Source: Halapricum desulfuricans (GTDB taxonomy: Archaea; Halobacteriota; Halobacteria; Halobacteriales; Haloarculaceae). From it: 64,000 nucleotides of DNA. Position numbers and translations under genes: made by a program. The stretch lies in NCBI RefSeq assembly GCF_017094505.1, contig NZ_CP064787.1, forward strand, positions 2,852,001-2,916,000, in the 5' to 3' direction. The notes under the pieces are model-generated. The model was not told where the DNA came from and ran no database searches. It worked only from the letters and a program-made list of their open reading frames with translations. Each line of letters opens with the position of its first letter. Position 1 is the stretch's first letter. Positions 60,960-64,000 of this stretch are shown here, in pieces.

Positions 60960-61164
60960 CACTGCCGAATATGTGCTAATTCTCCTTTAATCAACCGATA
61001 CTTAATCGAATTTTCAAAACGCTCCTGAGACGAGCCTGCCGCTCGCACCCGGACGCCCACCACCGGGAGACGACTGATCGGCCGCGAACAGACCGCGCGA
61101 GGGTATTTAAATATCTGCATATTCAATCCAAATCCGCATCCGGGGGATAGCCGTATCGACAGGT

Positions 61165-62100
61165 ATGGACAGACGTCACGCGAGCGATGACGGACCGGAA
61201 AAGGCGGCCGAGACCGAGTCGTCGGAGGCCGCGGAACGACCTGCAGACACTGAATCGGGACTCGACAGCGCGCTCCGCCGGCGGTTGCTCGCCAGCACGG
61301 CCAGCGTGGGCGCGCTCGCGACTGCGGGCTGTCTCGGCATCCTCGGCGACGGGAGTGAAACGGGGCCGCGACCCGGAGAGCCGACGAGTGTCGAAGAGAC
61401 GACGGACGATACGACGCCCAATGGAACGACGACGCCGGGAGGCGACGCGTTCGACATCGAGTTCCTCAACGAGGAAACGACACTCAGTATCGGTAGTGAC
61501 ACGGCGATTCTCGACGCCGCGCTCGACGCGGACCTAGACGTACCATACCAGTGTCAGGTCGGCGTCTGTGGCCAGTGCACGTCGAAAATCACGAGCGAGG
61601 GGAATCCGACAGAGCTGGTCGAACACGACGGCAACCAGTACCTCAGCGACGCACAGATCGAAGCGGGGTTCATGTTGACCTGTGTCGGCTATCCGCGCGG
61701 CGACTTCTCGCTCGAGACCGATGTCAAAGACGAGGCCGATTCCTACACGCCCGGCGAAGGGACCGAGACGCCGACAGAGACGCCCACGCCCGGCGAGGTC
61801 GAGTCTTACAGCATCAACTACGTCGAGCAGGGGGGCACGATCGACGTCGCAAGTGACGAATCGCTGCTCGACGCCGGCGAAGACGAGGGCTGGGAGCTCC
61901 CGAAACAGTGCGAAGTCGGCGTCTGCGGGCAGTGTACCTCCAAGGTCGACGGCGACGGGTCGGAACTGGTCGAACACGACGGCAACCAGTACCTCAGCGA
62001 CGAACAGCTCGAAGAGGGCTACGTGCTGACCTGCGTGGGCTACCCGCGCGACGACTTCGAACTGACGACCGGCAAGAAGGACGAAGCAGATCAGATCTGA
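61165..62100 (+). CDS. Lipoprotein with two tandem [2Fe-2S] ferredoxin domains
   Basis: The 311-residue protein has an N-terminal polar stretch (1-35), a Tat-like signal with RRR at 38-40 and a lipobox ATAGC (Cys56), then a Thr/Glu/Pro linker. Two plant-type [2Fe-2S] domains follow, with Cys130-x4-Cys135-x2-Cys138...Cys173 and Cys249-x4-Cys254-x2-Cys257...Cys290, joined by ETPTETPTPG. The domains are near copies of each other. Facing outside, they could pass electrons to the NrfD/Fe-S complex encoded downstream. A TATA box (TATTTAAATAT near 61104-61114) precedes it. Confidence 0.9.
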   Translation: MDRRHASDDGPEKAAETESSEAAERPADTESGLDSALRRRLLASTASVGALATAGCLGILGDGSETGPRPGEPTSVEETTDDTTPNGTTTPGGDAFDIEFLNEETTLSIGSDTAILDAALDADLDVPYQCQVGVCGQCTSKITSEGNPTELVEHDGNQYLSDAQIEAGFMLTCVGYPRGDFSLETDVKDEADSYTPGEGTETPTETPTPGEVESYSINYVEQGGTIDVASDESLLDAGEDEGWELPKQCEVGVCGQCTSKVDGDGSELVEHDGNQYLSDEQLEEGYVLTCVGYPRDDFELTTGKKDEADQI

Positions 62101-62196
62101 AAACTGGCGTCACGCCGACTTTCTGCGGAGAAGGCTATATAAAAGTCTGTAAAATGAATATATACTGGTATCGCTGAGAGGGGCGGATATACGTGT

Positions 62197-62289
62197 ATGA
62201 AGTGGCGCGTGCAACCGACGAATGCGATTCCACACGCGGTCGTATCGTGGTCTGACTCCCGGGCGGACGGCTGGAGGGCGTCGCGATGA
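62197..62289 (+). CDS. Possible 30-residue leader peptide
   Basis: ATG 62197 opens a frame MKWRVQPTNAIPHAVVSWSD followed by ten more residues, ending in TGA at 62287-62289. It overlaps the nrfD-like start by four bases (ATGA), the coupling arrangement used by real genes here. Two TATA-like boxes lie upstream (CTATATAAAAG near 62132-62142 and ATATATACTGG near 62158-62168). The peptide has no recognisable domain. It may be a translated leader controlling the operon, or chance. Confidence 0.35.
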   Translation: MKWRVQPTNAIPHAVVSWSDSRADGWRASR

Positions 62290-63308
62290 CGGCCGTGAGT
62301 CCGCTGCTGCCCAGCCAGTTCTGGAGCCTCTCAATCGGCGTGTACCTGTTCCTGGGTGGGCTCGCCGGCGGCGCGTACGTCACCGGTGCGGTCGCGGACT
62401 TCCTGAGCGTCCGGGATCCGTCCCGCCGGGAGGGGTATCTGGCGACGGCTCGCTGGGGCATGGTGCTCGGCGTCCTCGCGCTGGCGATCGGCGGCCCGAT
62501 ATTGCTCTTTCACCTTGGAGAGCCTCAGCACGTCCTGCTGTTCTGGCTGTTCACGAACTTCGATTCGTGGATGACTATCGGGATCTGGGTCATCGTCCTG
62601 TTCATGGTCCTGTCGATCCTGCAGGCGCTGTGGCTCGGGTTCGGTGCTGACCGCGGCTTCTCGATCCCCGGTGACGTACTGTCGGGGGTCACCGAGCTGA
62701 TCGACACGATCGCGGACGTGACCCGGCCGAGCGAGGGCGTCCGGCGCGGGCTCAACGCCTTCGGCGCGCTCGTGGGCGTCCTGCTGATCGTCTACACGGC
62801 GCTGTTGCTCAGCGCCTCCTCGCAGGTCGTCCCGATGTGGGACGCGACGTGGCTCCCGCCGCTGTTCCTGGCGAGCGGACTCTCGATGGGGATCGCCGCC
62901 GCCGTCGGCGCGACGACGCTCACCAAAGGCGTCACCGACACGGGCGTCACGATGTTCAGCGTCGCCGACGACGTGATCATCGTCGCCGAGATGGTGGTCA
63001 TCTACCTGCTGTTAGCGACGCTGGTCAACGGCGGCCCGACCGCCGTCGAGACCCAGACCTACCTCCTGACAGAGGGGAACCTGATCTTCTGGGGCGGGGT
63101 CGTCGCTGCCGGGCTGCTGTTGCCGCTTGCGATCTCCGGCGGGCTACTCGCCTTAGAGTGGCGCTACGACCTCCACGAGAACCCGCGGCTCGAGCGGCTG
63201 GCGACCGCCGGCTACGCGACGAAGTTCGGCTTCGTCATCTTCGGCGGACTGATGCTTCGGCTGACGATCATCTACGCGGCGCTGAACGTGCCGCTGTTCG
63301 GAGTGTGA
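62286..63308 (+). CDS. NrfD/PsrC family membrane quinone-interacting subunit
   Basis: The 340-residue protein has eight to nine predicted membrane segments. It starts with FWSLSIGVYLFLGGLAGGAY, the conserved NrfD opening, then GPILLFHLGEPQHVLLFWLF and FASGLSMGIAAAVG-like sequence, characteristic of the family. NrfD proteins carry electrons or couple proton movement between quinone and Fe-S/molybdoenzyme subunits. It lies between the [2Fe-2S] lipoprotein and the 4Fe-4S subunit genes (5 bases before the latter), forming one operon. Confidence 0.92.
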   Translation: MTAVSPLLPSQFWSLSIGVYLFLGGLAGGAYVTGAVADFLSVRDPSRREGYLATARWGMVLGVLALAIGGPILLFHLGEPQHVLLFWLFTNFDSWMTIGIWVIVLFMVLSILQALWLGFGADRGFSIPGDVLSGVTELIDTIADVTRPSEGVRRGLNAFGALVGVLLIVYTALLLSASSQVVPMWDATWLPPLFLASGLSMGIAAAVGATTLTKGVTDTGVTMFSVADDVIIVAEMVVIYLLLATLVNGGPTAVETQTYLLTEGNLIFWGGVVAAGLLLPLAISGGLLALEWRYDLHENPRLERLATAGYATKFGFVIFGGLMLRLTIIYAALNVPLFGV

Positions 63309-63313
63309 TTCCC

Positions 63314-64000
63314 ATGAGCGACAACTACGATCTAGACGACATCGAGGACCGGGCCGAGGAACGACTTGCACACGTCGAGTTCGACACCGAACTCGGCAAG
63401 CAGATGGCACGCGACGCGCGGCGGGTCTCGAACGGCGAGCTCTCGCGGGCGGCCTTCGAGGAGAAGTACGTCGACGACGTCCGCGAGGAGTTCGGCGTCG
63501 ACCTGCGGGGCGACTCGCAGGCGGACACCGAGCCCACGCCGGGCGTCCCGCCGACCGAGAGCAAGGCCTCCCGACGAGACATGCTCAAGGCGACGGGTGC
63601 GCTCGCGACGGGCGCAGTGGCAGCCGGGGCGGGCAGCAGCGTGGCCGGCGATCTCGTCTCCGGTAGCACCGGCGGCACTGCGGCCGCCCAGAGCGGCGGC
63701 GACGTCCAGATGGGAATGGTCGTCGACACCGAGACCTGTATCAAGTGTCTCCGCTGTGTCCAGGGCTGCAAGGAGGAGAACAACACGCCCGACGGACACT
63801 TCTGGCAGGAAGTCTTCCGCTACCGGCGCGAGGACAAAGAGTACGAGGGTGCTCCCAACGAGGAGAACGGGTGCGATCCGATCCAGCGCCCGTGCATGCA
63901 CTGCGACGACGCGCCCTGCATCGAGGTCTGTCCGAACAACTCCCGGTTCAAGACCGAGAACGGTCGCGTCCTCTGTGATTACGACACCTGTCTGGGCTGT
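63314..64000 (+). CDS. Tat-exported 4Fe-4S ferredoxin-type subunit (NrfC/DmsB-like), partial
   Basis: The first 229 residues are seen; the gene runs off the right edge. A Tat motif SRRDMLKATGALATGAVAAG occurs only at residues 86-105, after an acidic 80-residue extension, so the extension is either cytoplasmic or the signal is unusually long. The first cluster is Cys141, Cys144, Cys147 and Cys151 (CIKCLRCVQGCKEEN); then PCMHCDDAPCIEVCP and CDYDTCLGC provide the next clusters. Such subunits connect NrfD to a molybdopterin oxidoreductase, expected beyond the window. Confidence 0.9.
   Translation, partial: MSDNYDLDDIEDRAEERLAHVEFDTELGKQMARDARRVSNGELSRAAFEEKYVDDVREEFGVDLRGDSQADTEPTPGVPPTESKASRRDMLKATGALATGAVAAGAGSSVAGDLVSGSTGGTAAAQSGGDVQMGMVVDTETCIKCLRCVQGCKEENNTPDGHFWQEVFRYRREDKEYEGAPNEENGCDPIQRPCMHCDDAPCIEVCPNNSRFKTENGRVLCDYDTCLGC

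Follow-up and report, generated by a model that had tools for sequence, protein, structure and literature searches.

A double [2Fe-2S] ferredoxin lipoprotein encoded beside an NrfD-type module in haloarchaea, a candidate haem-free electron partner

In Halapricum desulfuricans and several other haloarchaea, a predicted lipoprotein with two plant-type [2Fe-2S] ferredoxin domains (LIPO) is encoded next to an NrfD-family membrane protein and a Tat-exported four-cluster iron-sulfur subunit (FES). The gene arrangement makes it likely that LIPO is the electron-exchange partner of an outward-facing quinone module, replacing a cytochrome c or a catalytic subunit. In several haloarchaea, LIPO probably carries electrons in the place that haem proteins occupy in the known versions of such modules.

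The window, that is, the whole stretch of 64,000 nucleotides analysed here (G000:C1:2852001-2916000 of a 2.94-Mb genome), ends within this module (Table 1). Its gene anatomy agrees with the initial annotation, which described two plant-type [2Fe-2S] domains on a lipid-anchored protein beside NrfD and a Tat Fe-S subunit. Gene calling relied on a simple script based on codon usage; it overlooked some genes, including FES in locus L006, and a second scan of all frames was added.

Table 1. Features of the LIPO-NrfD-FES module, in window coordinates
Feature	Position	Strand	Remark
LIPO, predicted Tat lipoprotein, two plant-type [2Fe-2S] ferredoxin domains, 311 aa	61165..62100	+	
LIPO twin arginine (R38-R39) to lipobox (A54-G55-C56)	61276..61332	+	invariant, 12 homologues
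LIPO first [2Fe-2S] domain, about residues 94-190; Cys 130, 135, 138, 173	61444..61734	+	
LIPO second [2Fe-2S] domain, about residues 210-307; Cys 249, 254, 257, 290	61792..62085	+	
TATA-like box with CTGYA motif, 5' of LIPO (TATTTAAATATCTGCATATTC)	61104..61125	+	kept in Halapricum relatives
TATA-like box with CTGTA motif, between LIPO and nrfD (TATATAAAAGTCTGTA)	62136..62151	+	kept in eight genomes/contigs
NrfD-family membrane protein, PsrC type, 340 aa, 8 hydrophobic segments	62286..63308	+	
FES 5' part, Tat-exported four-cluster [4Fe-4S] subunit	63314..64000	+	runs 549 bases beyond window

The Pfam Fer2 family (PF00111) matches LIPO in two stretches (5.5e-25), and the NCBIfam model fdx_plant matches at 1.4e-38, with 130.6 bits against a cut-off of 81.15. 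The CX4CX2CXnC ligand set is complete in both domains, which are identical in 53 of 95 aligned residues. The nine cysteines of LIPO are the one of the lipobox and the eight cluster ligands, and these eight, the twin arginine and the lipobox are unvaried across 12 homologues. The twin arginine, the hydrophobic stretch and the lipobox cysteine identify LIPO as a predicted haloarchaeal Tat lipoprotein, and we infer its [2Fe-2S] cofactors from the family match and the ligand pattern. LIPO shares this fold family and ligand pattern with the plant-type and haloarchaeal [2Fe-2S] ferredoxins, but differs from them in being Tat-exported, lipid-tethered and duplicated. An AlphaFold prediction on four LIPO sequences had a pLDDT of 31, too poor for a fold search, and a search of the PLSDB plasmids at 1e-15 gave no match. 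The common haloarchaeal [2Fe-2S] proteins of about 200 aa (L019-L037) were considered as lipoproteins; this was dismissed for the 12 inspected, which start with a hydrophobic stretch and have no lipobox.

The window NrfD belongs to the NrfD-like family PF03916 (2e-30, 106.9 bits against a cut-off of 25.8), and its hydrophobic segments agree in number with the 8 to 10 transmembrane helices expected of that family. Residues Y20, H76, S94, Y170 and T171 are unvaried in ten homologues and can be paired, by motif and spacing only, with the proposed quinone-site residues that a review of this family discusses (PMC8076601), a site expected to include a Ser and an acid or His in TMH2. A PDB sequence search with the NrfD profile at a threshold of 0.01 found nothing. 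The full FES gene (L006:7315-8550) encodes 411 aa with Ferredoxin_N and 4Fe-4S domains, a twin arginine and 16 cluster cysteines in four sets of four. The module stays below the NCBIfam equivalog cut-offs for NrfD (84.3 of 347.6 bits for the window NrfD), NrfC (111.9 of 377.6 bits) and DsrO (137.7 of 200 bits for FES). A molybdopterin subunit just beyond the window was considered and dismissed, as the next 10 kb hold no such gene. Because FES and LIPO both carry export signals, the chain of clusters is expected outside the cell. The initial annotation contrasted the [2Fe-2S] lipoprotein with known complexes that take electrons through 4Fe-4S subunits, haem or quinone; a correction is that FES is present too, so that LIPO would stand in for the catalytic or haem partner and not for the 4Fe-4S subunit.

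In our trees, the window-type NrfD falls among the NrfDs of haloarchaeal Psr-like operons (dividing branch 100/100, with a long-branch warning), whereas FES clusters with the FES of a family of larger NrfDs and not with PsrB (100/100, also with a long-branch warning). The module is thus mixed: its membrane subunit is of PsrC type, whereas its Fe-S subunit is of a Tat-exported, DsrO-like type. It resembles the PsrABC and haloarchaeal Psr-like operons in that its NrfD is nested in the Psr branch, but differs from them, and from other complex iron-sulfur molybdoenzymes (CISM), in having no molybdopterin subunit; its Fe-S subunit is of a longer, Tat-exported type and not PsrB. Among NCBIfam models FES is nearest to DsrO of DsrMKJOP (4e-40, below the cut-off), and DsrP gives a weak match to the larger NrfD of the paralogous modules; however, neither a DsrJ-like haem protein nor DsrMK is encoded in the loci, and the family cut-offs are missed. 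NrfABCD, as treated in sections of the NrfD review (PMC8076601), likewise has an NrfD membrane subunit, a four-cluster Fe-S subunit with its own signal and a separate external electron partner, but there the partner is a multihaem cytochrome c, here it would be the double [2Fe-2S] lipoprotein, and neither NrfA nor NrfB is encoded in the loci read.

The LIPO-NrfD-FES order, whose conservation the initial annotation had proposed to check, is kept beside orthologous nrfD genes in eight genomes or contigs of Halapricum and Halodesulfurarchaeum, which belong to two families. These are G000 with three other genomes of its genus; G001 and G007; a contig of Halapricum sp. CBA1109, where FES is interrupted by the contig end; and a contig of a Halodesulfurarchaeum MAG. 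Locus L088 is the same as G258 and was counted once, and the G258 contig carries the same genes as Halapricum hydrolyticum JAOPKD010000004. In the closely related genomes where the genes adjoin, NrfD is 62 to 98% identical, so the arrangement is not due to chance. The three genes also lie within about 6.5 kb in G033 and G141, where LIPO adjoins a second lipoprotein gene, LIPO2; G165, of the same genus, has neither a full-length LIPO nor a close NrfD relative.

Across 391 sampled haloarchaeal genomes, all of one class, we counted by hand at least 19 double-ferredoxin lipoprotein genes among the matches listed, a number from which weaker copies may be missing. Sixteen of these 19 lie no more than about 6.5 kb from an FES-NrfD pair. 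The binomial chance of this linkage is 2e-24 if 3 Mb of genome is taken to carry about five NrfD genes, which is an order of magnitude at best, because the relatives are not independent. The linkage includes a second NrfD type, since in G317, G359 (AArc-Sl), G120 and G366 the lipoprotein gene stands beside FES and a larger NrfD of about 425 to 454 aa, often together with a membrane protein of about 70 aa. The module of G366 adjoins a gene for a Tat lipoprotein with a CARDB and an ethylbenzene-dehydrogenase-type haem domain (L077:7308-9332). On the NrfD tree, the presence of LIPO needs at least three changes. LIPO and FES distances are correlated over 17 loci (r 0.87, with none of 5000 permutations as high) and, after dereplication, over 8 loci (r 0.51, with 15 of 5000 as high). 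LIPO and a molybdopterin subunit never occur in the same locus among the 43 NrfD genes placed, many of whose loci were chosen for holding LIPO, so that this is a pattern and not a census.

Larger NrfDs have matches in 157 of the 391 genomes, and of the larger-NrfD FES modules that we read beyond the LIPO genomes, most lack an adjacent LIPO. Modules of FES, larger NrfD and the small membrane protein with neither LIPO nor a molybdopterin gene are found at L287-L290, L292, L294 and L295, often with a neighbour of about 360 to 400 aa that we judged from its start to be Mrp/NBP35-like.

The arrangement of the promoter-like boxes bears on whether these genes form one operon. In all eight genomes or contigs compared, the nrfD ATG is preceded, about 130 to 155 bp upstream, by a TATA...CTGYA box, and a similar box lies 5' of LIPO. 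The initial annotation had the operon open with the lipoprotein, which finds no support here, as LIPO and nrfD each have a TATA-like box of their own. It had also named a separate promoter and regulation as a finding that would refute its reading; the separate box before nrfD is there, but the motif it shares with LIPO points to co-regulation. The arrangement is better explained by separate transcripts with a common control than by a single operon headed by LIPO, with read-through possible. A CTGYA-type box also stands 5' of LIPO2 in Halapricum and, in G178, 5' of the gene for a TIG-domain protein (TIG). In the whole genome, the strict pattern occurs at two distinct sites, one 5' of nrfD and the other 5' of LIPO2; as the pattern was derived from these same sites and its reversed control also has one site, its specificity is only suggestive.

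In the mechanism we propose, NrfD and FES would make up a membrane module that faces outwards and reacts with quinone, of the type seen in NrfCD and PsrBC, and LIPO would be its external, lipid-tethered one-electron carrier, connecting the menaquinone pool with an electron acceptor or donor outside the cytoplasm. The partner role of LIPO is argued for by the linkage of 16 of the 19 genes among the matches listed, the conserved order, the two NrfD subfamilies and the co-divergence with FES. It is also argued for by the molybdopterin-free LIPO loci, by six LIPO genomes, G000 included, that gave no match to Pfam Cytochrom_C, the sole family searched, and by reductases in G359 and G317 that carry a lipobox and have no adjacent NrfD gene. 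Sections of a genome study of natronoarchaea describe these as having neither complex III nor c-type cytochrome genes (PMC6176080). We counted against the partner role the apparently separate promoters, the three LIPO genes without FES-NrfD nearby among the matches listed, the larger-NrfD modules that have no LIPO, and the halocyanin-type copper proteins, alternative carriers present in five of the six LIPO genomes and absent from Halodesulfurarchaeum HSR6 (G007).

We infer the electron transfer between LIPO and FES, its direction and its terminal partner from gene content. For the direction we lean towards outward flow, in which NrfD-FES would oxidise menaquinol and LIPO would hand the electrons on, either to reductases outside the cytoplasm or straight to sulfur compounds; taken by itself, this version has a little less than an even chance. 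The named LIPO carriers mostly belong to sulfur-respiring groups (Halodesulfurarchaeum HSR6, AArc-Sl). In G359 and G317, neither a Psr-like enzyme with a lipobox in PsrA nor an Arr-like pair whose ArrB bears a lipobox has an adjacent NrfD gene, and the published account of the AArc-Sl genome likewise gives a Psr operon without psrC (PMC6176080). The ArrB-like lipoprotein of G359 (L299:11457-12470) and a LIPO (L073:7068-7979) are 64% identical over the 73 aa of signal and linker, with the low-complexity filter off, and the string AGCLGMFE-PEE-RYVGRSD, present in both, suggests that the 5' ends of the two genes share an origin. Taken together, the NrfD-less reductases and this likeness favour outward flow and make it plausible that an external carrier serves these Psr-like and Arr-like molybdoenzymes, which could be the partners in G359 and G317. 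The lone LIPO copies at L087:7673-8557 and G359:C1:2863816-2864154, which are not close to any NrfD gene, lie about 20 to 25 kb from the NrfD-less molybdoenzyme genes of their respective genomes.

Against outward flow, an NrfD-less reductase was not found among the molybdopterin matches examined in Halapricum G000; of six matches, the sixth a partial one at 167149, five were examined: four lie no more than about 3 kb from an NrfD gene, and one lies beside a gene judged to be cytochrome b-like. In Halapricum and Halodesulfurarchaeum, the adjoining lipoprotein LIPO2 is a candidate partner. Plant-type [2Fe-2S] clusters are usually of low potential, so that menaquinol oxidation by LIPO would be uphill; with clusters near -350 mV, outward flow would have to be driven by the membrane potential. 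This low potential favours inward flow, in which an external donor would pass electrons through LIPO and FES to NrfD and menaquinone, in the manner of Qrc. The NrfD review gives Qrc and Nhc as carrier:quinone complexes and thus as precedents within the family (PMC8076601), but no donor enzyme was identified in the LIPO loci, and we consider inward flow, the direction given in the initial annotation, possible but the less likely of the two.

Another reading links the module to the genes that follow it. The gene after FES encodes the second Tat lipoprotein, LIPO2, which has no Pfam or NCBIfam match; beyond it, on the opposite strand, are ABC-transporter genes with an NMT1-type binding protein, TIG and an HTH_10 regulator, and relatives have a CoxG-like gene at the same place (L006:8706-17437, downstream of the window). 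LIPO2 gave two weak matches and TIG none in PDB sequence searches, and an AlphaFold prediction for the Halapricum hydrolyticum LIPO2 alone had a pLDDT of 45, too poor for a fold search. TIG occurs in 24 and LIPO2 in 26 of the 391 genomes, and all 24 TIG genomes have LIPO2. Elsewhere the locus holds flavin-reductase-like, UbiD or xanthine-dehydrogenase-like genes, which point to the uptake and conversion of an organic compound. In G268 the locus adjoins an Arr-like molybdoenzyme whose Fe-S subunit bears a lipobox (L235:54-3817); the enzyme was dismissed as a part of the locus, as it was not seen there in the other genomes read. The LIPO-NrfD-FES module might serve redox steps on the transported compound and not be a general respiratory carrier system. 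All ten genomes with the window-type module belong to the 24 LIPO2/TIG genomes (Fisher 1e-13, kinship ignored), and the CTGYA-type boxes before LIPO, nrfD, LIPO2 and TIG agree with such a service. However, 14 of these 24 genomes have no window-type module, and the larger-NrfD modules of G120 and G366 sit in TIG-less genomes, which leaves this reading unlikely.

More doubtful still is the reading of LIPO as an exported ferredoxin with a role of its own, for instance in redox stress or iron handling, that shares only regulation or neighbourhood with NrfD-FES; the separate boxes, the stand-alone copies in G317, G359 and G282 and a single-domain Tat lipoprotein ferredoxin in G213 would suit it, but the linkage among the matches listed, the two NrfD subfamilies and the co-divergence with FES speak against it.

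A LIPO that partners NrfD-FES would extend what is described for this family. In the complexes that the NrfD review lists, electrons pass to subunits with haem, molybdenum or NiFe, or to carriers that are cytochromes or HiPIP (PMC8076601). Among these, Qrc, Nhc and alternative complex III are likewise quinone complexes that trade electrons with an external carrier (PMC8076601), but their carriers are cytochromes c or HiPIP, whereas a [2Fe-2S] carrier is proposed here. The term "2Fe-2S" does not occur in the main text of that review, in keeping with the view of the initial annotation that the combination is not known to have been described. We found no description of a double-[2Fe-2S] lipoprotein with NrfD-FES in the open-access literature, and no open-access paper joining haloarchaea, sulfur respiration, NrfD and ferredoxin.

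If the partner role of LIPO is true, plant-type ferredoxins would be placed on the outer face of the cell, and NrfD-FES modules without a catalytic subunit would gain a testable role. A [2Fe-2S] lipoprotein partner would also suggest how respirers that have no cytochrome c move electrons outside the membrane. More tentatively, haloarchaea without cytochrome c may have evolved haem-free carriers, in which LIPO-type ferredoxins and dedicated NrfD-FES modules would form an interchangeable link to several lipid-anchored reductases.
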